A stretch of 60,057 bases of DNA, taken from positions 1 to 60,057 of the forward strand of contig JAEUPL010000019.1 of assembly GCA_016790165.1 (NCBI GenBank), in the 5' to 3' direction. The notes under the pieces were generated by a model. That model saw only the letters and a program-made list of their open reading frames with translations. It was not told the DNA's origin and made no database searches. This stretch comes from Burkholderiales bacterium. GTDB lineage: Bacteria; Pseudomonadota; Gammaproteobacteria; Burkholderiales; Casimicrobiaceae. Position numbers and translations under genes: made by a program. Below are positions 224 to 40,474 of the stretch, piece by piece (position 1 is the first letter of the stretch; each line of letters opens with the position of its first letter).

Positions 224-2935
224 ATGACTGGAACTCCAACTGAACAGATGCCGAAACAAGTCGCGCCACACTTCCTGTTCCGCCCGCTATTGGTTGTATT
301 TACCGAGGCCGCGCGCACAACTGATCGCCAGCAGATAGCCAAGGAGGGTTTGTTCGGTTGCACCGACTCCAGATCCGGAGAACAAGACGTCTGGGAGGCA
401 ATCGACATCCGGGTGCTCTATCGCACCGATTCGGAACAGGGCGGAAGCACTGCGGCGAAGCAATCGCATGCGCTGGAAGATGTCGCGGCTGCGATGGGGA
501 CCCCCTACCCGGAGGCAGTCAGCATGATGGTAGGGGACAGCGGTTGGGCGAGCGAGGGCGATGATAACTTCCTCAACAGCTCTGTGCGCCTCAAGGCGAC
601 CGTTGGGCTACCCTGCATTCCAACCCTTTGTTCGGCAGAAGCGGCGCCTGAGCCTTGGAAGTTCACAGCACTCGCCGCCGGTTCTTTACCGAAGCCCGTG
701 CACCTGGTCAATCATGTCGGACAACTGTTAACAGGAGCGGTTCGCGCACTTTATCGAACCTTGCCCACGCTGGGCGACAATAAACTTGCCGTGAGTGCGG
801 TTGAGCTACGCGAACAAGCGCACCGTGACGCTACGGTAGAGATGCTTGCGGCGATGGGGGCACCAAAACTGCTTGGCACGAACTCGCCTGAGCTGGCAGC
901 GCTGCAGCGCCTGGTGTTTCCCATTTCCGCCACCGCACCAAGCATGCGATTCGTAAAGTGCCTGAATGCCGGCAAATCGGGCGCCAAAGTGGCTGTACTC
1001 GAAGTAGAGGGCGAGGCCCCTGTCGTCGTCAAAATCGGCACACCACTCGCTTTGCAGTCCGAGCTGTATGGCTATAGCACGGTGATGGATCGCAAGTTGC
1101 GAACCGGGGTGGGTGCCAACGCACTTTATGGTCAGGGCCGCAATGGTCTGGTTATGGCCCAAGTAGTGCCCAGCGATGCTAGCCAAGTAGACGGAAGCTC
1201 AAAAGATGCGGTGGGTACGTGGTATGGCCTGTTGGCCTATGCCTACGCTGGCCCGCCTACGCGTGACACCCAATTGCGATCACTAGGGGACCAAGTCCGA
1301 AATGCGCTGAAAGACGCGAAGCGGCGTGACGAAGTGCTTGACTCGCTCAAGCACACGCTTGACAGCACGATTGCGGTGCTGCATCACGGTGCCCGTGCCC
1401 AGCGAAGAACGCTCTGGCAAAGTTTTGGTCAGGTATTGCCCCCGCTTTTGGCCATGCGGGTAAACCAATCCAGTGAACTGCAGACGTGCGCTGTCGTGAT
1501 GACCTTTGAGGAAGGCGCAGACAAGTCGTGGTACGCGGCCGATGCGGCACAGTTTCGTGCGGCGGCATCGGTTGCAGAACAAGCGAACGTGGCGGCACAG
1601 AAGCCGTTGATTCATCTGCGCCGCATGTCGCTCCATGATCTGGAAGGTTCGGGCCTAGAGGGCACCAAACCCAGTGCCCAGTTGCGCCACCCGCGTCTGG
1701 GCATGCGTATTCAGGTGCAGTTCGTTCCCTCTTTGCAAGCGCATTGCGACAGCCACGCCGCGCCAATTACCACGACCCTAGCGGCACAGTGGGCCAATCG
1801 ACCATGGATTCGTCGTGGCTGCCGGTTCGATGTCGCTGGTGAGGCGGTTTCCTGTCACGAGGTACTCCGTCGCGACGAACTGGATCGATTGCGTACGCCC
1901 GCAGCCGGATCGGGCATGGCGTGGGGCGCCCGCCACGTTTTCCTCACCGGGTCAATGACAACCAGCACACAATCCGGCGAAGGCGCGCGTCAACAGCATG
2001 ATAATTCCGACACGCCACCGAAGGGGGTTGACACGGCGCACGCGCTGCGACTGATCGACATTACCTTTCAAACAGCGGTTGGCGCGACCCACGGTGACCT
2101 GAATCTGGAGAACATCATGTTCTCCGCACAAGACAAGACCGGCTGGCTCATCGATTTCGAGCACTCGCGCAACGATGGCGCCATTGCTTATGACTACGCA
2201 AAACTCATCGTCGAGACCATCAACCACCATCTGCTGCCGCAAATTGACGATGTTTGCGGCGTTGTCTCCCGTCCGGCCTTCAGCCCGTCGAATCCCGACT
2301 CGGGCAAGCTGTTTTCATCGATGGCGACCATGCTGCTGGAAACCATTGCGGACTCCATGGCCATCGACATGGAACGCGGGCAAATCTCTACCCTCGCGCA
2401 ACACAAAATCACTCTGGCCGTGCGTAAAGGCGTCGATCTTGAGCGACCGCTCATCTTGCTGGACGACTATGAGAAGCCAACCTTGCCCGGTGGCATTGCC
2501 TTCTTGCTCGAAGTGATAGCCACCCTGCTGCGCGCTGCGCGCGCCGCCCTCAAGGCAGCGTACAACAACGATCAAGCGGCCCTGGCCAATCGCGACCTGG
2601 CGCGCGCGATCGGCGCATACGCCTTCGCGTCCAAGAAGTTCAAAAAAGGACCGGCGCTGTCTTCCCATCGGGCGGCGCTTGAAACGCTGGCGACCCGATG
2701 CTTGCAGATCGGGATTCCCGGGCTCGCCGCCTTGTTCGCCGGTGGTGGGTCTGGCGTGCCAAATGCGAGTGATCCCCACGCCTTCTTGATGTATTGGTTG
2801 AACTCACGATCAACGACGAAAGAAAACAGCAGCTCATATACGGGCGAGACGCCAGCCGAGTCTGCAACGTCTGCTTCCGACTCCCATCTGGCGGCAGAAC
2901 AAAATACCACCGCTCAAACGCAGGCCACAGCATGA
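224..2935 (+). CDS. Kinase-fold (TCAD9-like) protein
   Basis: This 903-residue protein carries features of a protein-kinase/aminoglycoside-phosphotransferase fold. A nucleotide-binding-like strand pair with VVVKIGTP lies near residue 265, a catalytic-loop motif HGDLNLENI near 622, and a metal-binding-like LIDFEHS near 641. It resembles kinase-like domains reported in bacterial ternary conflict systems (TCAD9), but I assign that from memory of the motif layout. The N-terminal 230 and C-terminal 200 residues are not recognised. It is first in a five-gene plus-strand operon; its TGA overlaps the ATG of the next gene (ATGA). A phosphorylation target, or whether it phosphorylates proteins, nucleosides or small molecules, cannot be read from sequence. 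Confidence 0.6.
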   Translation: MTGTPTEQMPKQVAPHFLFRPLLVVFTEAARTTDRQQIAKEGLFGCTDSRSGEQDVWEAIDIRVLYRTDSEQGGSTAAKQSHALEDVAAAMGTPYPEAVSMMVGDSGWASEGDDNFLNSSVRLKATVGLPCIPTLCSAEAAPEPWKFTALAAGSLPKPVHLVNHVGQLLTGAVRALYRTLPTLGDNKLAVSAVELREQAHRDATVEMLAAMGAPKLLGTNSPELAALQRLVFPISATAPSMRFVKCLNAGKSGAKVAVLEVEGEAPVVVKIGTPLALQSELYGYSTVMDRKLRTGVGANALYGQGRNGLVMAQVVPSDASQVDGSSKDAVGTWYGLLAYAYAGPPTRDTQLRSLGDQVRNALKDAKRRDEVLDSLKHTLDSTIAVLHHGARAQRRTLWQSFGQVLPPLLAMRVNQSSELQTCAVVMTFEEGADKSWYAADAAQFRAAASVAEQANVAAQKPLIHLRRMSLHDLEGSGLEGTKPSAQLRHPRLGMRIQVQFVPSLQAHCDSHAAPITTTLAAQWANRPWIRRGCRFDVAGEAVSCHEVLRRDELDRLRTPAAGSGMAWGARHVFLTGSMTTSTQSGEGARQQHDNSDTPPKGVDTAHALRLIDITFQTAVGATHGDLNLENIMFSAQDKTGWLIDFEHSRNDGAIAYDYAKLIVETINHHLLPQIDDVCGVVSRPAFSPSNPDSGKLFSSMATMLLETIADSMAIDMERGQISTLAQHKITLAVRKGVDLERPLILLDDYEKPTLPGGIAFLLEVIATLLRAARAALKAAYNNDQAALANRDLARAIGAYAFASKKFKKGPALSSHRAALETLATRCLQIGIPGLAALFAGGGSGVPNASDPHAFLMYWLNSRSTTKENSSSYTGETPAESATSASDSHLAAEQNTTAQTQATA

Positions 2936-4353
2936 CTGCGACCGAATCATCAGCCCCCCAGAACAACGGTACCCACAGCGAAACCGCGCAACAATTCTGT
3001 AACCTCGTGCGTGGGCACTTCGAAGCCGGCGACATCACCCCCTTGTTTTCCGCGACGAATACCGAAGAAGTGCAGTATTGGGATTTCGCCTCCACCGGGT
3101 CGATCGGGAATCTTTCCCCCTTCGTCGGCTACTTGTGGCTGATGGGTCGACATCGCGCACAAAAGACCAACCTTGCTGAGCCGAACATCTACATACCCAA
3201 AATCGCCAGCGAGGGCGCCGGCGGTGGTACGGTGGATACGTTGCGAGCGGGTGGCTATGAATTCCTCAGCGAACCCGACCTTGTCCGCGTATTGGTTCAA
3301 ACTGCGGGAGGTCGCTTTTTTCAGCAGCAGGCAGGCCTGACCGGGTACGACAAGCCGCTGATGAAGGCTCGCAAGGAGGTTGGACTGATGACCTCGGGTG
3401 AACTGGTGCTTGCCTCAATCCTCGCCAAGAAACTGGCCATTGGCACGACGCATGTCGTCATCGACGTCAAACTGGGCGCTGACGGCAAGATGTACCCAAG
3501 GCTCGGGGGTATCCCGATGCCTGAAGGCCTAAGTACGGAGGAAATTGCCCGCGAGGCGCGCGGTGAGACACTGTGCGATGGCAAAGCGGTGTTTGTTCCC
3601 GCGAGCCAGGTTCCCACCCTCGCGAAATGGCTGGCCGGATTGCTTGGTGGCGGCTACGACGAAAACGCAGAGTTCGTTACGGTTGAGTGGAAAGGGCCAT
3701 ATGGTCGAAGCGTATGGGTCCGGCTGATCTTCAGCAACGCCGACACACCGCAGTGTCGGGCAGTCGGACGGTTACTGATACTGCACCAGCTTGAGCAACT
3801 ATCCTCTGAGTTTTGCACGTTGCCCAAAGAAATGTGCGATTGGTATTGCAAACATGTTCCGAGCGCGGTGGATAGTGCCGCAGTAGCACAATCGACAATC
3901 CAAACCGAGTGGAAGCAGTTGAAGCATCTGCTGCCCAAACTCGACGACAAGAACTCCGACTACTTGACGATCAAGACGCATTTGGCCGCCGCAATGAAAC
4001 CGGGGACCAGCCACACTGACTCGCCCCGCGGATCAACCTCACTCGATTCCGTCACGGTGTACGGCGAGGAAGTGCCGCTTTGGGTCGATGCCAGCCTGAT
4101 TGGACGAACCATCGAGCGCATGCAGGCCTATCCTCTGGACACGCTGTTCGACTCGCTCGGTGGCATCAACCAGCACGATCCAGCGGTCGGTATTTGGCTG
4201 CATCGATTGCCCGGCGAAGTGGTCACAGAAAACGAGCCCGTGGTAACGGCTTTCTTTCGCCCCGTTGATGACGGGGCCAGACTCAAGCGCAAGCTGATCC
4301 GCTATCTCAGTGAGAACGTCACGTTCGTGCCGCCTGAAAGCAAATCAACCTGA
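2932..4353 (+). CDS. Thymidine/pyrimidine-nucleoside phosphorylase-like protein
   Basis: Start chosen at ATG 2932 because it overlaps the upstream stop; an upstream in-frame start would lie inside the previous gene. The 473-residue product shows the thymidine phosphorylase (DeoA)/AMP phosphorylase core: DFASTGSIGN (family KHSTGGVGD), GGTVDTLRAGGYEFL (family GGTLDKLE), QQAGLTGYDKPLMKARKEV (family QTGxLxPADKxLYxLRDV) and ASILAKKLAIGTTHVVIDVK. The arginine and SILAKK lysine match known active-site positions, but the phosphate-loop lysine and second glycine of KxSTGG are changed, so activity or substrate may differ. Known members cleave nucleosides with phosphate to give ribose-1-phosphates. Here it is coupled to a Nudix-RNA polymerase, which suggests nucleotide processing. 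Confidence 0.7.
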   Translation: MTATESSAPQNNGTHSETAQQFCNLVRGHFEAGDITPLFSATNTEEVQYWDFASTGSIGNLSPFVGYLWLMGRHRAQKTNLAEPNIYIPKIASEGAGGGTVDTLRAGGYEFLSEPDLVRVLVQTAGGRFFQQQAGLTGYDKPLMKARKEVGLMTSGELVLASILAKKLAIGTTHVVIDVKLGADGKMYPRLGGIPMPEGLSTEEIAREARGETLCDGKAVFVPASQVPTLAKWLAGLLGGGYDENAEFVTVEWKGPYGRSVWVRLIFSNADTPQCRAVGRLLILHQLEQLSSEFCTLPKEMCDWYCKHVPSAVDSAAVAQSTIQTEWKQLKHLLPKLDDKNSDYLTIKTHLAAAMKPGTSHTDSPRGSTSLDSVTVYGEEVPLWVDASLIGRTIERMQAYPLDTLFDSLGGINQHDPAVGIWLHRLPGEVVTENEPVVTAFFRPVDDGARLKRKLIRYLSENVTFVPPESKST

Positions 4354-4368
4354 AGGCGGTTTCGCCCT

Positions 4369-7300
4369 ATGAAACGCCTTGCATTCATCACACTCGTCGA
4401 GACGTCTGACCATGGCGACGCCGAGCGGTACTGGTTTATCTGGAATCAGCACATGCTGGCGCCGGGTTTTTTCGGGGGGAGCGTTGACGCAACGGATTCC
4501 TCCCCGCGTGCAGCAGTGCTCCGGGAGCTGCAGGAAGAACTGGGTGTTGCGGAGCTATTTTCGAGATACAAAGTCGCACTTCCAGGCGACCCGACGCTGA
4601 GCGACGAGCTAGCGTCGTTGGTCGATTCTGCAAGAGAGTGCGCGGTAGATCAGCCGTGGCCGATTTATTCATTGCGCGCTGCGAAGGAGGGCAAAACGGC
4701 AAACACCGTTCGTTCGGTGTCGCACTACGTCGCCCGGTTCGCAGCCATAGATTACCCTGCATTGAGTGCGAAGCTGCACACCTTGTCCGGACTGGAAATA
4801 CCTGCCAGTCTGCGCGCGAATGATGATAGCGCGAAGATATGCAGTCGATTCACCGCCGATGAGTTGATCGAACATGCCCCGCGATGGCACTATCAACCTT
4901 GGATTGCCAGCGCGCTCGCTTTCAAGGCGATTGAACTTCCGGCCACGATGTTGCCTTGGCAGTCCTGCGCGCTGCGAACCGCGGAGGCGATGCGCGCCAG
5001 GCTGCAGTACTATGCCCGACTCGGTGGTATCCGCGGCCACTTCGCCGTGCGCATCCTACCCGGTTACACGCCAGACGAACCACACGTTGACGATATAGGC
5101 AGTGCCGCCTGGCTCGATATACGTCATAGCGCGATTTCGCGCGACCCTAGCGAAGGCATCGACGATATTGCTGAGCCGCTCATTGCGCGGCTGATCGCGT
5201 GGTCGAGCGACTCAATCTTCCAGAGCACGGATTCGGAGGGCAAGACCAGCCTGCTGGTCTCGATCCCGCGGATGGTTCGCCGACGGGGCTTGTACGTGCG
5301 CCCAGAAAGTTATCCACTCGACGCGGACGAGCCTGTTTCTGACTTCGTATGGCCCTCTCTGCCATCGAGCGTCGGCGTGCGTACCGTACTCAGCGACCCG
5401 CCGGATATTGGTCTCATCAAGCGCTTTGAAACGGACTGGTTAGCCTGGTACCAAATCGTTCACACCCTGTTTGCCGAAAGAGGAACCGGCAACCTCGTCG
5501 ATGAGTCGCACCTCGATAGCTGGCGGGTACTGACGATTTCATCGCGTCTGTTATTGGCTCTTGATCACGTTGCCGTCGCACTGTTTCTTTCTCAGGCAAG
5601 ATGGGCGGAGCGGACCCAAACGGAAGCTGCCGAACACGGCGACAACTTTGTGCTGGCAACGGACATCCGTTCCCTGCAAACCGACAAAGCGCCACCTGAC
5701 CTCAAACTCGCGTTCATCCCCAACGCTGACACCATCGCTGTTGACCCTGCACGCTTTGCGGCTTGCCTCACCGATCGCCACACTAGTGACGGTCTCGCGC
5801 GAATCGCAACATTCATGCAACTGCTCGACGACCTTCGCCCCGACAACGCGCATTACCTGAGGGCGGGTAACGAACGTGTGGAACGACTCGACGCGTTGAA
5901 CCAAGCCGAGTTCGCCTCAGCACTGTGTCGCGTTGAGCGCTATGGCTATAGTGGTACGGGGCTGGATCATCTGCCTGCGAGTTTCCGCCAGTTGCACCCG
6001 TCCCATCGCGGCATTCTCTGCCCGTTCGAAACGCCCGAGTCCAAGCGCGTGGGTTTGACAGTTCATTTTGCAACCACCGCGCGCATAGATCCCTATGGCG
6101 GTCTCTCTGCTGCCGGTGAAACTGATGGTGAACTCGCCAGATCCCCCGCCACGCATCTGCTGCCACTCATCGGGCACAGCGACACGACGCGCACCTCCAT
6201 GTGTGCAAAAAATCTCAAGCAGGCGACAGCCATTGTGGGTGCCGAGCCGCCCCGGCTCAAGAGTGGAACCGCCGACGCCGCGCTCGCCCCCATTGAAGGC
6301 GTGCTCAAACGGCACGACGTACACCTCCCGCGCGACTGTGGACGCAATGTCATCGTCGCTTACATGCCTTGGCACGGACTGAACACAGACGACGCTATCG
6401 TTATCAGTCACAGCGCGCGCGATGCGTTCGCCTGGAAGCAGGCACGAACTTTGCGCTTTCGCGTCCTGCCTGGTTGGCGAATGTTGACGACCGCCGAGCG
6501 CACCGAACAAATGTCCCCGCTGACCGCGCAGCTCGCCACCCTGCACTACGAGGAGGCCGGACATATCAAGGCAGGCAGCATCGTGACCGAAGGCTGCGAG
6601 TTTGCCTGGTTCAAACATTCGACGGGCGCGATTCGTCCGCTGCGCCTGCGTGACATTGTGCATGGCGAGGTAAGCGCAGTACGCTGGCAGCCGACGACCA
6701 ATGCCACATGGCTCGGTCACACGCTTGAGGTCGATGTTGAGGCGCATTTGCCCCTTCTGCCAGGCGACAAACTGATGGGGCGTTACGGCAACAAGGGCGT
6801 CATCGCGCGCATCGTCGCCGACGAGGACATGCCACGTATCCCGGACACCGAGGCGGTGCCGAAGCCGCTGCGGGGCCGCCACGTCGAAGTGCTTCTCAAC
6901 CCGCTGGGCGTGGTGACCCGTCTCAATCTGGGGCAAGTCTTCGAAACGCATTTGACCTGGGCACAGGCCTTTCGCCCGCAAAATGGTTCGGAAGCGGTTC
7001 TTACCGCAGGCGCCGTCCTGACGAAGGAGCAGCGCGATGCGATTCAGCAACATCCGATGGTGAAGCTGTCGATTCCTGGTAGCAGCACTGGCGCGTCTGC
7101 GCCAATCACAACCATTTATCCCGTGACCGTAGGTTGGCAATATCTGTTTCGCCTCAAGCAGTCGCCGTCTCTGAAGGGACATTTCCGAGGCAAGGGTGCC
7201 GTGAGTGGTGGCGGGTATGCCGCGTTGACCGGCCAACCAACCAGGGGCCGCCGCCAGCGCGGAGGTCAAAGTTTCGGCGAGATGGAGCTTTGGGCGCTCA

Positions 7301-10300
7301 TGGCGCACGGCAGCGCCCACTTGCTGGCCGACGTCATCGGCCCCAGATCCACGCCGCCCGGCACCGGGAGTGGTATCCACCCGACTTGGGCGAGCATCTG
7401 CGCCCACCTCCAGGCGCTGGGCATCGACGTCGAACGAGACCATCGCGGGGCGCGCGCGAAGCGCATCACTCGCCCGAGCGACGGCGACGAGTGGTCGGGT
7501 GACCATACTTGGGCCGCAGCGAGCTGGCGCTGCAACCACTGTCGCACTGTGTACGAAGCACCCGACCAAGCGGCCGTTGCGGTTGCGACTACCGAACGCG
7601 GCGGCGACTACGCACCGCTATACGGCTGGTTGACCATAATCGCCCCTGAGCTTTTGCCCGTCGTCTCCGCATTACCCTTCGTCGCGGTCGCTCAAGGCAA
7701 GCGTGACGAGCCGGTTTCCGTCGCGTCTGACCGCTGGCGCGTGACGTTGAGTAGCACGCATGCCGGGGACGGGCGTGACCGGCTGCTTCCCCTGACCCTA
7801 GTCTTCGAACGTCAAGGCGACGCTGCTGCAGCGCCCGATGACCCGAGCACCGGATTTGTTTTCCGTCTGCCACGTCCGTCCGCCAAACTTAATTGGAAAG
7901 CGGGTTTTGCCTGGTGCTGCCCAAGGCACCCAACGCAGCCACTGGCGCGGCTTGCCCCCGTCGACGTGCAGGCGGCGCGAGAGTGCAACGTTCAGTGGAT
8001 CTCGCTAGCCAGGGTTAGCTCTGCTGACCCCGCAGAGCGCGGCCTTGTCGACGTGCCCGTGCTGCCAGCAATGTACCGACCGAGTGGCCACGACGGCAGC
8101 CCCGCGCCGCTCACTACTGCCTACCACGCACTGCTGAACGCGGCGCACCGCCCTGGCGGCGACGCACGCAAGCAGCAAATTCGTTGGCAGCTTGCGGTGA
8201 TTCAGGCACTACTCTGGCACCGCTTGACAGGCAATTTACGCCACCCTGGTTCGCTGCAGCCTCTGAACTCTGCCGATTCGCAGCCTGATGGCGTCTCTGC
8301 AGCAGAGACCCGCGTCGCGCATCAGCGTATGGCGCGCCATCTTCGTCAGCGCTTTGGGCTAACCGAACGGTCACCCAAATTTGGCCTGCTGCGCGGTGCT
8401 GGGCTACGCCGCCGTGTGGACTGGTCGGGGCGCTTTGTCATCATCCCGCGCCCGGACTTGCCGGTGGATCACTGCGCAGTGCCAGCCGCGGCGCTCGCCG
8501 TACTGCTCGGCGAAACCATCGCAGAGTGGATCCAAACGCCAGTGGCAATGGCGTCAATCACAGACATCGCAGCGGAGTCATCCGCTGACGTGCGCAAGCC
8601 GGAATACTGGCTCGGGCGCACGTTTCTTTCTACCCCCGCGGTCGTTGAGGGCGTTTCGGATGCACGATGGGCCACTCTGCGGGCAAGTAAGGCGATCATT
8701 GACGCCTACCTCGGCGCCCACCCCGACACATATGTACTGCTCAACCGCCAGCCATCACTCCACAAGCACAGCCTGCTTGCCTTCCGCCCCATTTCGGCTG
8801 AACTGGGCGAAGGTTGGACACTCGGCATCCACCCCTTAGTTTGCAAAGGATTTAACGCCGATTTTGATGGCGACGAGATGACAATACACGCCGTGCTCAC
8901 GCCAGAACAGCGGGCCGAGGCAGCACACCTCTTGCCGACACACGCCACCCAACTCACTATGGCCGCCAATCCCTCCAATCCGCTCTGGGAGTGCAAGCAA
9001 GACTTCGCGCTAGGAGCGTGGCTCGCGCGCGTCAACGCTGACGATGCTCTGCAGGCTCTGGCAAGAGCAGCGAACGCTGAGGTTTGCCATCGCGCTGGTC
9101 AGCAAACCCCGTCGGCGACGACGTCAGACGTGGTGGCACTCCTCAACGCTACCTACCAGCAAGCCTTGCGCACAGCGACGCAGGCGGGCGTTTCATTCAG
9201 CGCAATAGAACTGCTTCGGCTTGACGCAAAAGCCGTGGCCTGCCATCCGACACGCGACGGCGATGAGGCCGCTGCGTACGCAGGCAACCAGACCGACGGC
9301 GTGTCCGCCAGAAAGCAACTCGACGACGACAAAGACGTCGCTCCCAATTTGTATGCACTTTTCACCAGCAAGGCCCGAGGCAAAGTGGAGCAGCATGGTC
9401 GACAAATGTACGTTGCACGTGGCTATCTTGACCCGAATGAACTGACTCGAGGCGAGACCAAGGCGCTGGGCAGAGACCTGAAAACAGTGCAGATCGGCCG
9501 CCATCACTGCCCGGTCTCGCTGACACGCGGACAATCTGCGGACCAGCTGTTCTACGCCGCATTCGCGGGTCGAAGCGCCTTGGTCGACAAGAAGTTGTTG
9601 ACTCCCACCGCAGGTGCACTTACCCGGCGCATGATGCTCGCCGCGTGGGAGTGGTGCATTTTTGGGGACGACTGCCACGCACCCTCGCCCCAGTCTGCCA
9701 TCTCCTGCCAGCAATCGGCCAGAACGGGTCGGCACAAAGTGATCTGTCGCGCCTGTTACGGTGCCGGGGCACATCTTGCCGATGGTGCGCCGATCGGCGT
9801 ACTTGCGGCGCAAAGCGTGGGCGAACGCGGCACCCAGCTCTCGATGGAAAGCTACAAAGGCGACGGTCGTCGAGTGCGACCGAGCAACGTGGCACACCTC
9901 CTCACTGTGCTGCAGCAGATGGCAAAATGCGTTGCCAGCAACTTGTCTGCCACCGCTCCTACGCAGAAAAAAACTGACACCGTGCGGGCTCTTGCCAAAT
10001 ATGCTCGGGAGGGGGCCAGCGCCTCCGGTGTATGGACGGAAGTGGTTCAGCGGCATCTTGACGCGTGGCTTAACCAGACAACTGAACCCTCCTGCGAGCA
10101 ATGCGCCACCTTCGCTCAAACCTGGTTTGTCTTGGCCATCAACAGCATAGACGTGTACCAGGCGCTCGCCCGGTGGCATGTACCACTCATCGCTCGCGTC
10201 GTATTTGACGCCGCTTCCACCAGCGGTGGTTGGCTAACTGAGTGGCTGCATGGGAATGATCGCATTGCACGCTCACCGCATACCCGTTGGCGCGAAATAC

Positions 10301-10440
10301 TCGACGATCCGAATCAATTCGCTGAGCCGCTCGATAGCTGGATCGCACAACTGCTGCGGGGCGAACTCAGCCCACCAAGCGCAATAGTCCGCCAGGAAGC
10401 GTCCACCATAGAAATTGAATCCATCCGGCCGGATGCCTGA
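4369..10440 (+). CDS. Nudix-RpoB-RpoC fusion: single-chain RNA polymerase
   Basis: A 2023-residue chain. Residues 1-150 hold a Nudix-like hydrolase domain (Nudix box around 36-60 with LRELQEELGV). Residues about 500-990 match the catalytic half of RNA polymerase beta: HPSHRG (543), CPFETPESKRVGL (551), VAYMPWHGLNTDDAIVIS (663), GDKLMGRYGNKGVI (799), LNPLGVVTRLNLGQVFETHL (843) and GGQSFGEMELWALMAHG (965). Residues about 1335-1840 match beta-prime: RRVDWSGR (1348), LLNRQPSLH (1457), NADFDGDE (1496, three catalytic aspartates intact), a bridge-helix/trigger-loop-like stretch (1726-1764), ICRACYG zinc cysteines (1792) and GVLAAQSVGERGTQLSMESY (1810). The beta-prime clamp N-terminus and the usual lineage inserts seem absent. 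Housekeeping beta and beta-prime are separate and much larger in total. It lies 16 bp after the phosphorylase-like gene and 8 bp before the next. Confidence 0.9.
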   Translation: MKRLAFITLVETSDHGDAERYWFIWNQHMLAPGFFGGSVDATDSSPRAAVLRELQEELGVAELFSRYKVALPGDPTLSDELASLVDSARECAVDQPWPIYSLRAAKEGKTANTVRSVSHYVARFAAIDYPALSAKLHTLSGLEIPASLRANDDSAKICSRFTADELIEHAPRWHYQPWIASALAFKAIELPATMLPWQSCALRTAEAMRARLQYYARLGGIRGHFAVRILPGYTPDEPHVDDIGSAAWLDIRHSAISRDPSEGIDDIAEPLIARLIAWSSDSIFQSTDSEGKTSLLVSIPRMVRRRGLYVRPESYPLDADEPVSDFVWPSLPSSVGVRTVLSDPPDIGLIKRFETDWLAWYQIVHTLFAERGTGNLVDESHLDSWRVLTISSRLLLALDHVAVALFLSQARWAERTQTEAAEHGDNFVLATDIRSLQTDKAPPDLKLAFIPNADTIAVDPARFAACLTDRHTSDGLARIATFMQLLDDLRPDNAHYLRAGNERVERLDALNQAEFASALCRVERYGYSGTGLDHLPASFRQLHPSHRGILCPFETPESKRVGLTVHFATTARIDPYGGLSAAGETDGELARSPATHLLPLIGHSDTTRTSMCAKNLKQATAIVGAEPPRLKSGTADAALAPIEGVLKRHDVHLPRDCGRNVIVAYMPWHGLNTDDAIVISHSARDAFAWKQARTLRFRVLPGWRMLTTAERTEQMSPLTAQLATLHYEEAGHIKAGSIVTEGCEFAWFKHSTGAIRPLRLRDIVHGEVSAVRWQPTTNATWLGHTLEVDVEAHLPLLPGDKLMGRYGNKGVIARIVADEDMPRIPDTEAVPKPLRGRHVEVLLNPLGVVTRLNLGQVFETHLTWAQAFRPQNGSEAVLTAGAVLTKEQRDAIQQHPMVKLSIPGSSTGASAPITTIYPVTVGWQYLFRLKQSPSLKGHFRGKGAVSGGGYAALTGQPTRGRRQRGGQSFGEMELWALMAHGSAHLLADVIGPRSTPPGTGSGIHPTWASICAHLQALGIDVERDHRGARAKRITRPSDGDEWSGDHTWAAASWRCNHCRTVYEAPDQAAVAVATTERGGDYAPLYGWLTIIAPELLPVVSALPFVAVAQGKRDEPVSVASDRWRVTLSSTHAGDGRDRLLPLTLVFERQGDAAAAPDDPSTGFVFRLPRPSAKLNWKAGFAWCCPRHPTQPLARLAPVDVQAARECNVQWISLARVSSADPAERGLVDVPVLPAMYRPSGHDGSPAPLTTAYHALLNAAHRPGGDARKQQIRWQLAVIQALLWHRLTGNLRHPGSLQPLNSADSQPDGVSAAETRVAHQRMARHLRQRFGLTERSPKFGLLRGAGLRRRVDWSGRFVIIPRPDLPVDHCAVPAAALAVLLGETIAEWIQTPVAMASITDIAAESSADVRKPEYWLGRTFLSTPAVVEGVSDARWATLRASKAIIDAYLGAHPDTYVLLNRQPSLHKHSLLAFRPISAELGEGWTLGIHPLVCKGFNADFDGDEMTIHAVLTPEQRAEAAHLLPTHATQLTMAANPSNPLWECKQDFALGAWLARVNADDALQALARAANAEVCHRAGQQTPSATTSDVVALLNATYQQALRTATQAGVSFSAIELLRLDAKAVACHPTRDGDEAAAYAGNQTDGVSARKQLDDDKDVAPNLYALFTSKARGKVEQHGRQMYVARGYLDPNELTRGETKALGRDLKTVQIGRHHCPVSLTRGQSADQLFYAAFAGRSALVDKKLLTPTAGALTRRMMLAAWEWCIFGDDCHAPSPQSAISCQQSARTGRHKVICRACYGAGAHLADGAPIGVLAAQSVGERGTQLSMESYKGDGRRVRPSNVAHLLTVLQQMAKCVASNLSATAPTQKKTDTVRALAKYAREGASASGVWTEVVQRHLDAWLNQTTEPSCEQCATFAQTWFVLAINSIDVYQALARWHVPLIARVVFDAASTSGGWLTEWLHGNDRIARSPHTRWREILDDPNQFAEPLDSWIAQLLRGELSPPSAIVRQEASTIEIESIRPDA

Positions 10441-10448
10441 GGCCCACA

Positions 10449-11360
10449 ATGGCACTTGCACAACAACCCGTTCAGAACCGTCGGAAGCAACCGGAAGTCC
10501 AACAGCAGGCGGATCGGTACCACGGCACAGCCGCTGCGCGCAACGCGCTCGCCATCGCTAGCGCAGCGCAGCGAACCCAACGCTGGCGCAGCTCGCTCCG
10601 CGACCTGCAGACGATGGCGCAGGCTGCGTATGCCGCCGGCCCATGGGATGACGTCGAAAGCGCTGCGCCCGATCCTGACGCCAACGACCCGCTCGCTATC
10701 GAGGACGCGCTACTGACGGACGGCCCGGAGGATGATGCTGACGAAATCGCAAAAGGCGAGCCTGAGGCCGATGAGTTGCTCGCGTTTGAGCTGTTGTTGC
10801 GCGAGGACCACAACGCCGAGTCGCTGCGGGATACACCGCTCACTCTGCAGCTCGCTGACTGGCATGTGCTACGCGTGACATCGGGCGAGGGCAGACTGAC
10901 GGCATCGCCCCCCGAGTGCCGTTTCATTCCCAAGGCATGGATGCGTCAACTCACCTCGACTGATCCGAGCGATGACTTCGGTTTGTTTCTGTGTGAACTC
11001 AGCGCCACCTTCGACCAGATCGCTCGATCGATCGAACAGCGGTTGCCGACGTTTCTGGCGACGCCAGACCCGACCGCCTTGATGACCGACTGGCGGAGAC
11101 TGCAACGCAGCCTTCAGGCTGACTTACCAGGCAAGAATCTCGGCATGCTGGTCCCGACGGAGCAGGTGGGCTTTATCGAACTCGTCTTCCACGATGTGAG
11201 CGCGCTCGGCGACAGCGACAGTAGCCGGCGTGCACGCTTCAGCGACGTCATCGAACACAGCCTGCTGTACTGGCGCGACACCGGGTGTTTCATGCCGTTG
11301 CGGCAATGGTTTGACAACCCTGACTGGAAACGCCAAATCGCGCTCGCCTGTGCGGCCTAA
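10449..11360 (+). CDS. Acidic protein of unknown function in the RNA-polymerase operon
   Basis: I do not recognise this 303-residue protein. It starts 8 bp after the RNA-polymerase stop, so it is very probably co-translated. The N-terminus is glutamine-, arginine- and alanine-rich; residues about 75-118 are strongly acidic and low in complexity; the C-terminal 170 residues look like a folded helical domain with tryptophans near the end (MTDWRRLQRSL, LLYWRDTGCFMPLRQWF). Position suggests a dedicated subunit or specificity factor of the unusual polymerase, but no sigma region 2/4 motif or alpha-subunit signature is visible. Confidence 0.55.
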   Translation: MALAQQPVQNRRKQPEVQQQADRYHGTAAARNALAIASAAQRTQRWRSSLRDLQTMAQAAYAAGPWDDVESAAPDPDANDPLAIEDALLTDGPEDDADEIAKGEPEADELLAFELLLREDHNAESLRDTPLTLQLADWHVLRVTSGEGRLTASPPECRFIPKAWMRQLTSTDPSDDFGLFLCELSATFDQIARSIEQRLPTFLATPDPTALMTDWRRLQRSLQADLPGKNLGMLVPTEQVGFIELVFHDVSALGDSDSSRRARFSDVIEHSLLYWRDTGCFMPLRQWFDNPDWKRQIALACAA

Positions 11361-11406
11361 GTCCTACCTGTAGTCATCCCATCGTGCTCGCCAACCGACG
11401 GCCTTC

Positions 11407-13011
11407 ATGAACCCATCGCCCGCCGAACACAACGCTCAATCGCAGTCGGCCCCGGACTCGGGGACCGCCAACCGCCTCGCTTATATCACCGTGATCCGGG
11501 TCGCCGCCTCCCCCGAACTGGGGCAAAGCGCCGACTGCTCCTACCGCAGCGTATTGCGCGCCGCGGTCGAAGCGTCTGATCGGAAGCCTTTCACGGTTTA
11601 CGTCCTGCCCATGGGCGCTACGCTCACTATGCAGGCCACGCTGCGCGACGAACTCATCCGCAGCAATGCCGCCGCCCCGTGGGAAGTGCTGCGCACCTCG
11701 ACCGTTGATCAGGGTGACGACGATTTTCGTGCGCATGTCGCCCCCGCCTGGCCTCACCCTCAGGATTGCGCGACAAAATCCGAGCATCTCATCCAGATCG
11801 GCAGCGTGGCGCCTCTCGGGAAGTACGACGCGCAGCCGCACGAAGTGCTGTTCGCGGGTACAGGAATGGAGTCAGTCGTGGCGCAGCTTGATCGTGTGCG
11901 CACCGATATGCGTCGCCTGCTGTGGGTTTTTGACAAGGACATCGGTGAGCGTCGTCGCGATGTGCTGGCGGATTTTGCTGCTTTGGTTAACGCGCGCATC
12001 GCTACGGCCCCTTGGGCTGATGACCAACCGGCGCCCGCTTTCGCTTATCTGAATGGCGCACCACCCAAGGGCAGGAATAACGGCAAGCTGTTCGGCGTAT
12101 GGATCACCGAAGCTGAGGCAAAGTGGCCATGGGGTACGCTGCGTGACAAAGTGTTTACCGCATTGCATTCAAGGTTGCACCAGACCCTGCAAGAGGGAAA
12201 ATTCACCAACGTGGCTGCCACTCGCGCGTTGCCACGTGTGCTGATCCTCGGGGAATCGGGAGCGGGCAAATCACTCGCGGTAGACTACCTAGCGCGTCGC
12301 GTCAGCGACCCCGGCCTACGTCGCTTGCAGCGCGTATCGGTGCCCGACTACGTCGGTGCCGAAGCCAGTTTGAAGCACGAATTGTTCGGCTATATGCCTG
12401 GCAGTTTCACCGGCGCAGCCGAGCGAGGCGATCCGGGCCTGTTGCTAAGCAATATCGGCGGCGTGATCTTCCTCGATGAAATCGGCGACGCCTCACCCGA
12501 GCTGCAGGCCAAGCTACTGGCCTACCTCGACGACTTTTGCGTGCGCCCGGTCGGCTACAACGATACCCCTCTGCCTTGCCCCACGCTGGTAGTCGCCGCC
12601 ACGAATCGCCCAATTGAGCAATGGGCTCAGTCACACCGAGAAGGACGGATCGACCCCGGCCAAAGCGGCAATTTCCGCCACGACCTCCTCGAGCGCTTCG
12701 ACACTGTGGTGCGCTTGCCCTCGCTCAACCAACGAATCAAGCAAGGCGAATTGCCGGCCATCGTCGACGCCCTCCTCCAAACCGAGGCTGTCAATCCGAT
12801 CATGGATACTGCCGCAGGTACACGGCGCGTAGCCGCTATCGACGGTGACGCTCTCGCTAATCTCGCACAGCGCGACTACGAAGGCGCCAATCTGCGCAAA
12901 CTCACGCGCCTGCTCAGTCACGCTGTTCAGCGTGCACAAGCCTGCGATCGGACATACCTGACGTCGGGGGACGTTCCCTTTGAGGTGACGAGCGCTCATG
13001 CATCTGCGTGA
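11407..13011 (+). CDS. Sigma54-activator-type AAA+ ATPase without DNA-binding domain
   Basis: A 534-residue protein whose residues about 270-500 are an NtrC-family AAA+ core. Walker A is LGESGAGKS near 281. The loop that contacts sigma54 reads FGYMPGSFTGA near 331, where the family has GAFTGA. Walker B is IFLDEIGD near 354, sensor I AATNRP near 397. The protein stops soon after the lid (no Fis-type helix-turn-helix). The N-terminal 250 residues form an unrecognised domain that in position recalls the sensory domain of RtcR, but no CARF motif is clear. Such ATPases remodel sigma54-RNA polymerase; here the partner may be the operon's own polymerase. It follows the previous gene by 46 bp and closes the operon. 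Confidence 0.8.
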   Translation: MNPSPAEHNAQSQSAPDSGTANRLAYITVIRVAASPELGQSADCSYRSVLRAAVEASDRKPFTVYVLPMGATLTMQATLRDELIRSNAAAPWEVLRTSTVDQGDDDFRAHVAPAWPHPQDCATKSEHLIQIGSVAPLGKYDAQPHEVLFAGTGMESVVAQLDRVRTDMRRLLWVFDKDIGERRRDVLADFAALVNARIATAPWADDQPAPAFAYLNGAPPKGRNNGKLFGVWITEAEAKWPWGTLRDKVFTALHSRLHQTLQEGKFTNVAATRALPRVLILGESGAGKSLAVDYLARRVSDPGLRRLQRVSVPDYVGAEASLKHELFGYMPGSFTGAAERGDPGLLLSNIGGVIFLDEIGDASPELQAKLLAYLDDFCVRPVGYNDTPLPCPTLVVAATNRPIEQWAQSHREGRIDPGQSGNFRHDLLERFDTVVRLPSLNQRIKQGELPAIVDALLQTEAVNPIMDTAAGTRRVAAIDGDALANLAQRDYEGANLRKLTRLLSHAVQRAQACDRTYLTSGDVPFEVTSAHASA

Positions 13012-13307: not shown

Positions 13308-16300
13308 TCACGCTGCAGGCTGTGCAGCGCGCGAAACTAGCGACGCGGCAGTTCGCTGAATCACTAACGCTCCGAGTTCAGAAAGTGCATTAGCGGGCAC
13401 CTTCGACCTGTTGCGTTCCAGGTACTGAGTAAATTCACGTACCAGCGTCGGAATTAGCAACGCTCCCGATTGAGGATCAACCAGTCGCGTCATGATGTTC
13501 ACAATCAGGCGTTCAAAGAGCCATGAGCTTAGGTCCTCATTAAAGCCGGCCTGCTCACGCGACCATGCATTCGCTCGCGCCTTGTGGATGTGCTGGACGA
13601 GGTTTCGCACAGAGTTCTCCACATTAAGACCTGATCGGTCGGCCAGGCATTCATCCACGGTCCTAGGGTAAAAGCTTGCAACACGGACGAATGCGTCGCC
13701 TAGGCGCGAGCAGAAATCCGTGTAGCAAGATTCGTACGTCCGGTCGCCCACCCATGTAGACTGCACGACGATACTCGAAAACCGTTCGTGATTGGTCAAC
13801 GCGCGAACGCCAAGCTGAAACATCTTGTTCACGACCCGTTGATTCCCACGCTCGAGAACGGCGATCAACGCCAGATCAGTGATCAAGACGGTCGCAAGCT
13901 CGAAGTCCTCGCTACACCAATGGTGACGGTCCGGAAGATTTCCTACCAGGCTATCAATGTGTAGGAATGCTTTCTCAGACTCGTCTGCATGCAGCATCGA
14001 GCGTATTGTCGTGCCGATAATATTCGTTGTCACCGGACGTCCATCCGAGTCGACGTATGCTGTGCCTCCGGTTTTGACCATTTCCTCAGCCAATTTGACG
14101 TTCAGGGAGGTAGCCTCTGACATCGGGTGCAGATCTTCCGCGAAACTATTCGCGTGGTATAGCCCCAGGCTAACGGAGTACTGAAGCGCGACGAAAGACT
14201 CCCGACACATCGATCCGCTCGCGCATAACTCCCGAGCCTGCTGGAGCAGTGCGGGTAGCATTTGTAGAACTTCCGGTTCGACGTCGCGGCTTCGAGTTCG
14301 TGACTCGAAGTAGCGGCAGGAAATCGCGAAGGCAAGATTTTCAATCAGAAATGCGTTGGGGACCTGTTCACAAAATCGGGCAAGAATAGTGTCAGGCACT
14401 AGCTTGTGATCGGGATCAACCCATAGGCAGCTCTCAATGAATTTTGAGCCAGCTTCGGCATCATTACAAATGTTGCGCCACTGCCGAAGATTCACGGGCA
14501 TTCGATTCGCTCGCAACATTGTGCTGAACACGACATCGAGCAAACGGCGAGCCACTAGTTGGCGCGTCGATGAACTTTCAAATCGGCGCGCCTGATCCGC
14601 AAGGATGGATTGCAAGTGGTTGAGTAGTTCGTCCCTGACCCGCCTTCCCTCTCCGGTTCGGCCGGCGGCGCTGTGCATGAATTCATGGAGGAGCAACAGT
14701 AGCTTGCGAAGTGACCCGAGCGCGTACCCTGCGCGGAGGTACCCTGTCCCCCAGGCGCCGAGCCAACGGGCCGCCAAAGTCTGCACCATCAGGCTCAACA
14801 AATTGCGGTTGCGGATCTCTCCGATCACGTACTCAAAGTTGCTCAAGCAGGCATTGACGTACGCCGGATCGTTGATGAGCGTGGCGATCGCAATGCACCC
14901 TTGATCATTGACCTGGGTGTCACCTGAAATCAGGGTGGATCGCATCGCTTTGACGAGGCGACTGGTACTCTTTTGGCGCTCGTCGCTGGAGTTTTCGCCA
15001 TAGTATGCAGAGCTGTTTTGCAGGCAATCGATAGCGAGTTGAATCGCCCAGACTCGGGTCTTAGGGCTAGCCGTTTCGATACACTCCGAAAGAACACTGC
15101 ACAATGCCGACGCGGACCTTTCGTCTGCTGCAAATACGATGACAAACGCCCTCTTGAAGAGAGTCGCACAAAACAGATACTCGTCATCCGAAAATGCATC
15201 GTCGCGATCACGTGGTCGTGTGAAATCAAACAACCTTCGCAGTCGCGCCGTGGAGTCCGCTTCAGCACCGGATATCGCGAGACGCGCGATCGCCTTTGCG
15301 AGACCGAGGCTCGTTCCCTGAGCATGGACTTCGTCCATTTTCCAAAGTGCATCAGAATCGAGACTCGCCCCGCCCGCATCGTAGCGCGCAGTGACCAATT
15401 TCATCGCTTCAGCCAAGATGCGCGAACCTGACGACAGAGCGGGGTCACCATCACTGCGGGCGAGTACCGCGCCAATAGGAGCAACCAGCAGCACGGCAAA
15501 GTGTGCCTCTGCAACGCGATCGTATCGAAATCGGTACGTCGCGTCACCAGTACTTCGCTGCGGCGCACCGATTTCTTCAAGTACATCGCTGTCCTGCACT
15601 CGCCTCATCAATTCATCAACAACGTCGCGAACGGTGGTCGCTGTGGCGCCGGCCATCAAACCTGTCGCAATCGATGTCGCGATTTCCCGCAGGCGCGCTC
15701 TGTTGATGATCTGACTCTTTCGGATCAAGAGGTCTGCGGCAACATGCAACAGGAAGTCGCCGATTAGGCCGTGCCGCTGTTCGTGCTGATCTGCCAAAGT
15801 ACGCCAACTACCACTGATTTCCTCGATGGTCTGAACGGCAATGAGTTCCGCGATCTGAACAGCCTGCTGATCGGTGTCCCTCAGCTTCCGCCCAATGAGA
15901 CGGAAGTACACCGGTACCCGAAGCAAAAGCCGGAACAGCTCTGGCGCCAGAGCGCCGCTCTTGGGTAACGAATATGACGTGGACAGACGATACTTCTCGT
16001 ACGCCTTCTCACGGCAGCGCTGTCGCTTTTCGTTGTTGGCCTCCTCGTCGAACAACAAGTCTGGCAAGTCGAAACGCATGGCCATCGGATCGATGTAGCC
16101 ACCACTGGGCGTGAGTAGTTTGCTTCCGATTTCGGTTTCGATTGCTTTGAATGTGTTCGGTCTAGTCGTGATGATGATGTTGACGGCACACTGGACTTCG
16201 TTGCATCGCCTAATAAAGGGCTCGAGCGCGTCGATGATGCGTGATCGATCAAATGAATTCCATTGATTGAAACCATCGATAACAAGGCAAGGTGCGTCCG

Positions 16301-17255
16301 ACCTCCACCTCTCACCGGTAATGCTCGAACCTCTGACATGTTGTGCAAGACGCCAAGTCAGGTCAAGCTTAGTATCCAGCACGGCACTGTCTCCTTCACT
16401 GAGCGACTGAGCGCCATCGATCCGGACGAGAGGATGGCTGAGAAACCAGCTGCATCCAAGCGAGTCGTCTCGCTCGCCAGCTTGGAGATTCGACTGCTTG
16501 TTCTGGCGCTCGTGCAATCTCGCAATACAAAAGTTGTTCACATAAGTAGTCTTTCCGACGCCCGATGCCGCGACAATGAAGTGAATTCGGGCGTGACCAT
16601 CACCTTCCTGTGTCCATCTGTCGTCGAATCTGACGACGTTGTGGCCATTGTGCTCCCGTCTGAATGGCATTCGCAGTGTGTACGTATTTGTGTCGCTTCT
16701 TTTGCATTCACTCCAAATGCGATCCAACTCGTGTGAGTAGTCGACATGCAGGCGCAACACGTCCGCATGCGTCTGGAGAGCTTTTAGAATCGCTGCGGCG
16801 CGACCATTAAGATCATTTGTGTTAACGCTGGCGATGGTCGTGTAACGCGCCAATCGTTCCCAGCTGGGCGATGCCGCCTCGCCCGGTGGAAATGCTGTTT
16901 GCGTGATCAATTGCTCAAACGTGAACGCCAGCATCGGCTTCTTGCTGGCCATGGCGCACTCGAGCTCAATCTCAAGTATTGAGAGTTCGCGCCCTTCGTG
17001 TGTGAACTTCTGTTTGGAGACCTCTGACGGCAGCAGTACCAACACGATGTCGCTGGCGGCCACGCACTGCTTCGAAGTAAACAACGGATTTGCGATCTGA
17101 GGATTTTCAGTATCCAGACGATCTAGCTGAAAACGTTTATCGCCGTTCAGGCCGTTGACTAGCGCATCGACCAGTTTGCCGTCTAGGCAAAAGCGATGTG
17201 AAACGAAAATCCTTATCGGATCAACTGTACGCTTGAAGTATTGCCGATCAGTCAT
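13308..17255 (-). CDS. TIR-STAND NTPase, predicted antiphage sensor/effector
   Basis: A 1315-residue protein. Residues about 12-120 form a TIR-like domain (IRIFVSHRF, SDIVLVLLPSEVS, and glutamates in LSILEIELECA that could include the catalytic one). A STAND-type P-loop NTPase follows: Walker A AASGVGKTT (229-237), Walker B CLVIDGFNQW (323-332) and IIITTRP sensor (360-366). The remaining 900 residues are helical and likely form the repeat sensor region. Bacterial TIR domains typically cleave NAD+, and STAND proteins oligomerise on sensing a trigger; both are family knowledge. Its ATG overlaps the stop of the upstream EEP gene (ATGA), so the two are translationally coupled. The exact ligand is unknown. 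Confidence 0.8.
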   Translation of the reverse strand: MTDRQYFKRTVDPIRIFVSHRFCLDGKLVDALVNGLNGDKRFQLDRLDTENPQIANPLFTSKQCVAASDIVLVLLPSEVSKQKFTHEGRELSILEIELECAMASKKPMLAFTFEQLITQTAFPPGEAASPSWERLARYTTIASVNTNDLNGRAAAILKALQTHADVLRLHVDYSHELDRIWSECKRSDTNTYTLRMPFRREHNGHNVVRFDDRWTQEGDGHARIHFIVAASGVGKTTYVNNFCIARLHERQNKQSNLQAGERDDSLGCSWFLSHPLVRIDGAQSLSEGDSAVLDTKLDLTWRLAQHVRGSSITGERWRSDAPCLVIDGFNQWNSFDRSRIIDALEPFIRRCNEVQCAVNIIITTRPNTFKAIETEIGSKLLTPSGGYIDPMAMRFDLPDLLFDEEANNEKRQRCREKAYEKYRLSTSYSLPKSGALAPELFRLLLRVPVYFRLIGRKLRDTDQQAVQIAELIAVQTIEEISGSWRTLADQHEQRHGLIGDFLLHVAADLLIRKSQIINRARLREIATSIATGLMAGATATTVRDVVDELMRRVQDSDVLEEIGAPQRSTGDATYRFRYDRVAEAHFAVLLVAPIGAVLARSDGDPALSSGSRILAEAMKLVTARYDAGGASLDSDALWKMDEVHAQGTSLGLAKAIARLAISGAEADSTARLRRLFDFTRPRDRDDAFSDDEYLFCATLFKRAFVIVFAADERSASALCSVLSECIETASPKTRVWAIQLAIDCLQNSSAYYGENSSDERQKSTSRLVKAMRSTLISGDTQVNDQGCIAIATLINDPAYVNACLSNFEYVIGEIRNRNLLSLMVQTLAARWLGAWGTGYLRAGYALGSLRKLLLLLHEFMHSAAGRTGEGRRVRDELLNHLQSILADQARRFESSSTRQLVARRLLDVVFSTMLRANRMPVNLRQWRNICNDAEAGSKFIESCLWVDPDHKLVPDTILARFCEQVPNAFLIENLAFAISCRYFESRTRSRDVEPEVLQMLPALLQQARELCASGSMCRESFVALQYSVSLGLYHANSFAEDLHPMSEATSLNVKLAEEMVKTGGTAYVDSDGRPVTTNIIGTTIRSMLHADESEKAFLHIDSLVGNLPDRHHWCSEDFELATVLITDLALIAVLERGNQRVVNKMFQLGVRALTNHERFSSIVVQSTWVGDRTYESCYTDFCSRLGDAFVRVASFYPRTVDECLADRSGLNVENSVRNLVQHIHKARANAWSREQAGFNEDLSSWLFERLIVNIMTRLVDPQSGALLIPTLVREFTQYLERNRSKVPANALSELGALVIQRTAASLVSRAAQPAA

Positions 17256-25951: not shown

Positions 25952-25998
25952 TGAGGGCGAAGCGGTGAGCGCAACCGCTGGGGTGGCGTTCAAACAAT

Positions 25999-35700: not shown

Positions 35701-35704
35701 GCCC

Positions 35705-38454: not shown

Positions 38455-38456
38455 CG

Positions 38457-40472: not shown

Positions 40473-40474
40473 CG

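Follow-up and report, generated by a model that had tools for sequence, protein, structure and literature searches.

A single-chain Nudix-RNA polymerase, nearer to phage enzymes in the trees, in a five-gene operon of a Burkholderiales defence island

The common view is that a cell uses a single core RNA polymerase (RNAP). On a stretch of 60,057 nt from a Burkholderiales bacterium of the family Casimicrobiaceae (contig JAEUPL010000019.1 of assembly GCA_016790165.1; the window hereafter, one entire contig of a draft genome of 3.76 Mb in 41 contigs), we examined an operon at 224-13011 whose third gene encodes a Nudix domain, a beta core and a beta' core in one chain, here called the polymerase. 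The other genes encode a kinase, a protein resembling thymidine phosphorylase (TP-like protein), an orphan protein of 303 aa and an AAA+ ATPase. An initial annotation, made from the letters of the window alone, had recognised a polymerase with Nudix, beta and beta' in one chain, distinct from the housekeeping enzyme and conserved at its catalytic residues, in a tightly packed operon amid defence genes. The open reading frames (ORFs), the Pfam matches and a comparison of residues bear this description out.

Described systems closest to the operon

PMC5467207 presents YonO of SPbeta as an enzyme that transcribes an operon of SPbeta late genes and that, like the polymerase, is a single-chain RNAP outside the housekeeping set. 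YonO is described there as having no detectable trigger-loop homology, whereas the polymerase possesses a trigger loop and can be aligned with most of beta and beta'. Multisubunit RNAPs encoded on viral contigs of IMG/VR are of two kinds. Those with a single chain resemble the polymerase in the order beta then beta' and in length, and some of them carry TPES and KGFNADFDGD. Unlike the polymerase, they mostly retain the trigger-loop His and have no Nudix string; the Nudix-like string RExxEExG was found in the first 500 residues of 0 of 77 such ORFs, three of which are cut at the edge of the locus. In the other kind, the split phage RNAPs, beta' (median 906 aa) and beta (median 1,014 aa) are two ORFs, mostly with beta' before beta and in a phage context, whereas the polymerase is one chain on a bacterial contig; the identity between them is 19-23%. 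A split enzyme, L072, has NRQPSLHK and GERGTQ as found in the polymerase, and both are compact. RpoB and RpoC share the catalytic-core domains. On the other hand, the polymerase is ~750 residues shorter than the host RpoB and RpoC combined, despite its Nudix domain, and their clamp coiled coil and N-terminal Zn site are unrecognisable in it. The host genes rpoB and rpoC are present separately on another contig of the same genome. In the plasmid collection, the records nearest to this housekeeping pair are from Neisseria (71%), in keeping with a betaproteobacterium but no proof of one; a 16S gene was not found in the genome.

Among systems related to immunity, Altae-Tran 2023 (PMC10910872) names a 'two-component RNAPol + CARF' system, UAS-58, near type III CRISPR. 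It is a bare mention, and by name alone the likeness is that of an RNAP gene accompanied by a putative sensor close to a type III system; the difference is that CARF was undetected here and that three further genes are present in the operon. In figure legends of the same paper, TCAD9, a domain of our kinase, appears in a panel of CRISPR-linked CARF/SAVED proteins and is placed with vWA-MoxR-VMAP systems. The TCAD domain is also what the operon shares with the vWA-MoxR-TCAD ternary system, but a vWA match is missing and the AAA+ protein is of the bacterial enhancer-binding protein (bEBP) type and not of the MoxR type. RtcR has an AAA+ domain and a GAFTGA-type loop in common with our ATPase, but differs in that the N-terminus of the latter is unmatched, a helix-turn-helix (HTH) match is lacking and the operon partners, by the families found, are not RtcA/RtcB. 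Nucleoside-phosphorylase and Nudix domains are predicted in PMC7159879 to be parts of NTP-dependent conflict systems. A literature search covering titles and the openings of abstracts found no immune system described as relying on a two-barrel RNA polymerase of its own.

Catalytic core and descent of the polymerase

Pfam identified, in one stop-free frame and in this order, NUDIX (E 6.5e-5, above the cut-off), RNA_pol_Rpb2_3, Rpb2_6 (2.7e-26), Rpb2_7 (8e-7, under the cut-off), Rpb1_2 (9.4e-24) and Rpb1_5 (4.1e-12). NCBIfam matches included rpoB (3.3e-51) and rpoC (1.6e-39), all under the curated cut-offs. The Nudix box REUXEEXGU is present as RELQEELGV (residues 52-60); the upstream consensus Glu is not found as such, as an Asp occupies the position or the residue is shifted. 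Features of two-barrel RNAPs, namely the NADFDGD loop, both beta lysines, the bridge helix and the trigger loop, were found. In E. coli numbering, K801 and K809 correspond to beta K1065 and K1073, and the trigger-loop residues M1826-K1830 to M932-R933-T934-F935-H936. In this numbering, NADFDGD, R425, K1065, K1073, D814, T790, Q929 and M932 are kept. Substitutions were found at E813 (to D), R540 (to I), K789 (to L) and A791 (to P), and in the trigger loop, where E replaces R933 and K replaces H936. At position 936, His is found in 6/6 bacterial, 45/54 single-chain phage and 44/44 split phage enzymes.

We then considered 63 near-universal columns, defined as those without variation in 6 bacterial enzymes and with conservation of 95% or more across 104 polymerases (6 bacterial, 54 phage single-chain and 44 phage split). 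The polymerase keeps 55 of them (31/37 in beta and 24/26 in beta'). Among columns invariant in housekeeping enzymes, 110/316 are kept in beta (six proteins compared, 48 columns in gaps) and 120/285 in beta' (seven proteins compared, 33 columns in gaps). Kept columns cluster around the active centre, with 19/23 in residues 800-849 and 22/29 in residues 1450-1499. When only core columns are counted, 40% of the housekeeping-invariant sites are kept, compared with means of 48% for the 54 single-chain phage enzymes and 50% for the 44 split ones. As 55 of the 63 near-universal columns and the catalytic residues are kept, decay of the polymerase is unlikely, while its chemistry may differ. From its residues, the polymerase looks catalytically functional, and may synthesize RNA.

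The region between the two cores is different. Residues ~1033-1230, from the end of beta to VPVLPA, gave no convincing alignment with the zinc site or the clamp coiled coil of housekeeping beta', and carry CNHC and CC motifs of their own. The sigma-binding clamp coiled coil could not be recognised in the alignment, and no long helix pair was modelled before VPVLPA, where pLDDT (predicted local distance difference test) is below 50 for much of the chain. The model, an AlphaFold2 model of the beta' half (residues 985-2023), was built with 72 sequences and has a mean pLDDT of 59, with 369 of 1,039 residues below 50. The initial annotation had proposed modelling of the active centre; for the beta' half this provided a bridge helix (residues 1724-1759) and helices flanking the trigger loop, and left much of ~1033-1230 at low confidence. 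In a fold search with this model, the best E was 2.0e-17 for solved beta' chains and 1.2e-16 for viral proteins, which are unnamed. As the global TM-scores are low (~0.3), the support for the fold is limited to the core.

In order to place the polymerase, viral loci were collected with two alignment-based scans of IMG/VR viral contigs, which gave at least 80 loci each and some contigs twice. The alignment of the first scan consisted of the polymerase and one giant-virus-like RPB1, and another alignment was used for the second. Among the 160 loci fetched, 77 carry beta-beta' in one ORF (2,000-2,200 aa in 53 of them) and 80 carry two ORFs. ORFs that were too short, near-identical or without the motifs were dropped, leaving a pool of 54 of the 77 single-chain ORFs and 44 of the 80 split loci. 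Each careful tree was made with a mixture model from a quarter of the pool and a few named rows, and the rows were drawn twice. Both times, the best tree had split phage RNAPs as the sister of the polymerase, with support of 87/68 in tree 1 (37 rows, giant-virus-like outgroup) and 99/98 in tree 2 (35 rows, without the outgroup). Grouping with six bacterial enzymes was rejected by the approximately unbiased (AU) test (p 0.0106 for tree 1 and p 0.0036 for tree 2). The polymerase also has the phage-like motifs NRQPSLHK and GERGTQ. In a FastTree tree with the giant-virus outgroup, the polymerase was the first branch beside the outgroup; we read this as long-branch attraction, and outgroup-free trees were used as well for this reason. 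In one outgroup-free tree the housekeeping group was not monophyletic.

Several points weigh against this placement. The polymerase sits on a very long branch (2.79 changes per column in tree 1 and 2.45 in tree 2) and its position is unsure in both trees. Its composition is unusual; in the concatenated alignment, bacterial enzymes come out slightly ahead in raw identity (29%), and bacterial models also head the NCBIfam ranking. The main single-chain phage clade may also be the nearest phage group, its AU values being borderline (p 0.084 for tree 1 and p 0.045 for the rows of tree 2 without L188). A p of 0.011 against a single-chain phage grouping was set aside, as its row set was not a clade (L188 groups apart). 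Taking the long branch into account, the comparison supports descent of the polymerase core from phage multisubunit RNAPs, or from a deep ancestor shared with them, rather than from the host rpoBC. In our reading, the polymerase probably represents a deep lineage that lies closer to the RNAPs of phages than to that of the host. The initial annotation had missed the grouping of the core with phage RNAPs, and not with the housekeeping enzyme, in the trees and AU tests. The split phage group is perhaps the mReC of Weinheimer and Aylward 2020 (PMC7481178). The single-chain beta-beta' RNAPs are a large group in the viral contigs (L122-L231), and Vibrio phage D69 (L071) has a related frame of 1,546 codons with ADYDGD that is annotated 'hypothetical'.

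Operon partners, relatives and genomic setting

The five ORFs are consecutive on the + strand, with spacings of -4, 15, 8 and 46 bases (Table 1). The ATG of the TP-like gene overlaps the kinase TGA in a 4-base start/stop overlap, and the gaps that follow lie before the polymerase gene (15 bases), the 303-aa gene (8) and the AAA+ gene (46). All five frames have low GC at the second codon position and higher GC at the first and third, as in coding frames. A chance assembly of ORFs was considered, and was rejected or at least weakened.

Table 1. Positions in the window of the operon genes, of elements of the polymerase and of the CRISPR-Cas system.
Feature	Position	Strand	Evidence
Kinase, 903 aa (TCAD9/APH type)	224..2935	+	ORFs + Pfam
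TP-like protein (thymidine/pyrimidine-nucleoside phosphorylase), 473 aa	2932..4353	+	NCBIfam NF004490 7.7e-14, under cut-off
Nudix-beta-beta' RNA polymerase, single chain, 2,023 aa	4369..10440	+	Pfam + NCBIfam
Nudix box RELQEELG, residues 52-59	4522..4545	+	NUDIX 23.4 bits vs cut-off 21.1
Beta core, residues 507-990	5887..7338	+	Pfam + alignment
CNHC motif, residues 1055-1058, beta/beta' linker	7531..7542	+	Alignment + motif reading
Beta' core, residues 1330-1838: GLRRRVDWSGR, NRQPSLHK, NADFDGD, bridge helix, trigger loop	8356..9882	+	
NADFDGD catalytic Mg2+ loop, residues 1496-1502	8854..8874	+	Alignment
Bridge helix, residues 1724-1759, one 36-residue helix in model	9538..9645	+	Alignment + model
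Trigger-loop residues M1826-E1827-S1828-Y1829-K1830	9844..9858	+	Alignment
Orphan protein, 303 aa	10449..11360	+	No family match
RtcR-like AAA+ ATPase, 534 aa	11407..13011	+	Pfam + NCBIfam
Type III-B Cmr system, RT-Cas1, Cas6, two arrays	30174-32306 and 34882-43167	- (first interval)	

The kinase consists of an unmatched N-terminal region of ~240 aa followed by a TCAD9/APH-like kinase fold. In Pfam, TCAD9 (PF19974) matched with E 5.2e-22 (79 bits against a cut-off of 40) and APH with 23.8 against 23.2. The catalytic motifs are intact, with VVVKIG at residue 267 and HGDLNLENIM...IDF at residue 623. Nothing in the plasmid collection matched the kinase, and the TP-like protein matched thymidine phosphorylases there. 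The 519 aa first given for the latter correspond to its longest frame, and the coupled ATG at 2932 leads to 473 aa. In E. coli thymidine phosphorylase, H85 is catalytic, K84 binds phosphate and R171, S186 and K190 belong to the base pocket. In a pairwise alignment with this enzyme, the TP-like protein keeps the equivalents of R171, S186 and K190, and F52/A53 replace those of K84/H85. An active thymidine phosphorylase was rejected as a candidate, or at least weakened, on account of these replaced residues, and the suggestion of a phosphorylase handling substrates is weakened. As the base pocket is kept and the K84/H85 equivalents are lost, binding of a ligand is likelier than ordinary phosphorolysis.

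The 303-aa protein matched nothing in Pfam, NCBIfam, PADLOC or PHROG; it had been called acidic, and is so only mildly (48 D+E against 30 K+R). The AAA+ protein has Walker A, Walker B and GSFTGA (residues 332-337, 12400-12417), and thus the core of a sigma-54 activator, an AAA+ domain with a GAFTGA-type loop. Sigma54_activat matched with E 1.7e-25, and the best named relative was RtcR (5.2e-27, under the cut-off). The protein also lies near the CARF_AAA_HTH models of PADLOC, in its AAA part only. No HTH family was found in Pfam at E up to 1, and the N-terminal 265 residues had no match in Pfam or in PDB sequences. The term NtrC-type thus holds for the AAA+ domain, and not for an HTH or for the 265-residue N-terminal domain, which matches nothing found. 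When the N-terminus was compared with an RtcR N-terminal profile by hhalign, the probability was 0.1%, with 0.1-7% for five shuffles; with a profile of 7 sequences (5/12 loci gave none) and a single query sequence, this is a weak negative. In control comparisons, the N-termini of three other activators gave 0.1-0.2% and the AAA part gave 98.8%. Membership in RtcR was considered, and was rejected or at least weakened. A single-sequence model of the AAA+ protein had a mean pLDDT of 33.7, and nothing was drawn from it.

Relatives of the polymerase were searched in genome, viral, plasmid and phage collections. The scans across all genome contigs could detect exact short peptides or one motif only. 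With short peptides of the whole polymerase, there were 20 pattern stretches in genome contigs, 0 confirmed, and none in viral contigs. A 65-aa beta stretch gave 13 stretches, 0 confirmed, and a 70-aa beta' stretch gave 9, of which 1 was confirmed (L064, giant-virus-like). A degenerate NADFDGDE pattern had 0 matches in viral contigs; its sole match in genome contigs (L060) was discarded as a chance antisense match in an apparent trigger-factor gene. By tblastn, among the best 30 of 65 plasmid and the best 20 of 43 phage records, the top summed scores were 208 and 182 bits and none covers 80% of the polymerase.

Sets of genomes, those of the order, class and phylum being samples, were also examined; the sets overlap, each contains the source genome, and in all but the family search no more than two candidates were scored per genome. 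Among 300 genomes of the order, 272 matched the polymerase at 1e-10, the best besides the source genome with 60.9 bits. In the class (369 genomes) and the phylum (397), the source genome alone matched at 1e-22. The 64 family genomes gave one extra match (G667), which was dismissed as an rpoB-rpoC pair in two ORFs. Matches to the 303-aa protein, to the N-terminal domain of the AAA+ protein and to the kinase (E up to 1e-6) came, in the same 64 genomes, from the source genome only. TCAD9 was above its cut-off in 3 of 349 phylum genomes, including the source genome. The other two carriers (G444 and G447) have it in large proteins (frames of 1,471 and 1,495 aa), and the stretches fetched from them held no match to the other operon proteins. 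By eye, these two frames (L035/L054 and L036/L055) carry STAND/TPR-like parts. Single rpoB/rpoC frames of 2,655-2,886 codons, which suggest natural rpoBC fusions, were seen in two genomes of the same genus (G163 and G288) and four of the same order (G001, G051, G096 and G174).

The contig carries type III-B CRISPR-Cas with Cmr1, Cas10, Cmr3, Cmr4, Cmr6, Cas6 and a fusion of reverse transcriptase and Cas1 (RT-Cas1). The arrays, RT-Cas1, Cas10 and Cas6 lie 15-30 kb downstream of the operon, and Cas10 has a GGDD motif. The two arrays hold 55 spacers, and their 35-base repeats differ solely in a short inner block. Array A has a spacer (28474-28503) matching 25922-25951 with 30/30 bases, near the start of the ORF of a ThiF-JAB protein (24307-25974, - strand), and another (28808-28839) matching 20397-20425 with 28/29 bases in the ORF 20347-21081 (- strand). 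A third self-match of 16 bases (28939 against 35463) may be chance. Given the RT-Cas1 fusion, the self-matching spacers could reflect acquisition from the cell's own transcripts or from a rival element. Further genes on the contig encode a TIR protein, the ThiF-JAB protein, a WYL regulator and an IetA-like ATPase. A 1,315-aa protein (13308-17255, - strand) has, by eye, a TIR-like N-terminus and an NTPase-like middle, with a sub-threshold nSTAND3 match only. At 43936-47483 (+ strand), the TIR protein is followed by a 748-aa protein that is SLOG-like by eye, with no Pfam match at E up to 0.1. An insertion sequence (IS) had been placed at the left edge of the window. Such an element is suggested at most: a frame on the minus strand ends at base 1, and ~28 of its residues resemble the start of an IS3-type OrfA; the frame had no match in the plasmid collection.

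Possible roles of the operon

We tentatively favour, while holding it short of probable, the explanation that the operon is a self-contained accessory module for RNA synthesis, gated by infection and acting as a defence effector, with a mechanism that we infer from the parts. Infection would be sensed by the AAA+ protein through its N-terminal domain, by the TCAD9 kinase, or by the two together, and the ATPase would license the polymerase. The polymerase would transcribe invader or island DNA, or make a signalling RNA. The TP-like protein may bind a nucleoside or nucleotide, and the Nudix domain may trim NTP-derived or capped products. RNA synthesis, the use of modified nucleotides and phage protection by the operon are likewise putative. 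A more specific form seems possible but doubtful to us, in which an RNAP captured from a phage lineage and fused to Nudix is the effector or signal-maker of an immune operon, its RNA product, and not gene expression, being the weapon or alarm, under the gate of the ATPase and the kinase.

A number of results speak against a defence module of this kind. The collections searched yielded no second locus of this architecture, so that the five genes may not be a functional unit. Catalysis could be slow or altered, given the E and K that replace R933 and H936 in the trigger loop. The hhalign comparison gave no sign of a CARF-like N-terminus in the ATPase, and Pfam found no vWA match, though typical of TCAD systems, in the five operon proteins. 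A strict sigma-54 (-24/-12) promoter was not found in the 223 bases upstream of the operon. These bases contain two loose GG-N10-GC sites, at 191 and 197, and rpoN is present in the genome.

Among the alternatives, it is somewhat unlikely that the operon has no role in defence and that a phage-derived polymerase expresses genes of the island or of an integrated element, as a mobile element's own transcription enzyme. The phage-like lineage in the trees, the transcription of the SPbeta late-gene operon by YonO (as given in PMC5467207) and two tyrosine-recombinase-like ORFs seen by eye on the contig (53560-54900 and 58044-58997) would agree with this. However, no phage structural genes were recognised by eye among the listed contig ORFs, in the course of which no search was aimed at them; kinase, AAA+ and Nudix partners are unexpected for a simple late-gene polymerase, and the Nudix-like string is absent from the viral single-chain ORFs as described above. 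We consider it unlikely that the operon is a signal module of the type III-B system, in the form of UAS-58, in which cyclic oligoadenylate from Cas10 would be the signal on which the AAA+ protein or the kinase turns the polymerase on. The CRISPR-Cas genes downstream, the naming of UAS-58 in PMC10910872 and the closeness of the AAA+ protein to RtcR and the CARF_AAA_HTH models point to it, but these matches span the AAA part only, the N-terminus scored no better than shuffles and matched nothing in Pfam, and the operon is not adjacent to the cas genes.

As a further alternative, the polymerase would have arisen from a duplicate of cellular rpoBC that diverged, was fused and was co-opted. The identity to bacterial enzymes and the order of the NCBIfam models would be explained in this way, and in at least 10 genomes of the order, of which two belong to the same genus, the rpoB/rpoC matches fall within open frames of 2,599-2,886 codons, so that housekeeping fusions may occur nearby. 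Such an origin is nevertheless quite improbable in view of the AU tests, which reject the housekeeping grouping even if long branches can sway them, and of the phage-like NRQPSLHK and GERGTQ. That the polymerase is an inactive relic under no selection is hardly credible; the trigger-loop substitutions and the lack of relatives of the same architecture would fit a relic, but 2,023 stop-free codons, a codon-position GC bias throughout and the retention of near-universal columns would not.

What is new here is that the trees reject the housekeeping grouping and place the polymerase, on a very long branch, beside split-subunit RNAPs of phages. The altered trigger loop can be regarded as a natural experiment on transcription chemistry. 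A two-barrel polymerase of phage-like type with conserved catalytic residues, retained in a defence island beside the cell's own enzyme, would indicate a flow of polymerases between phage and host, and dedicated RNA synthesis as a bacterial immune effector would become testable.

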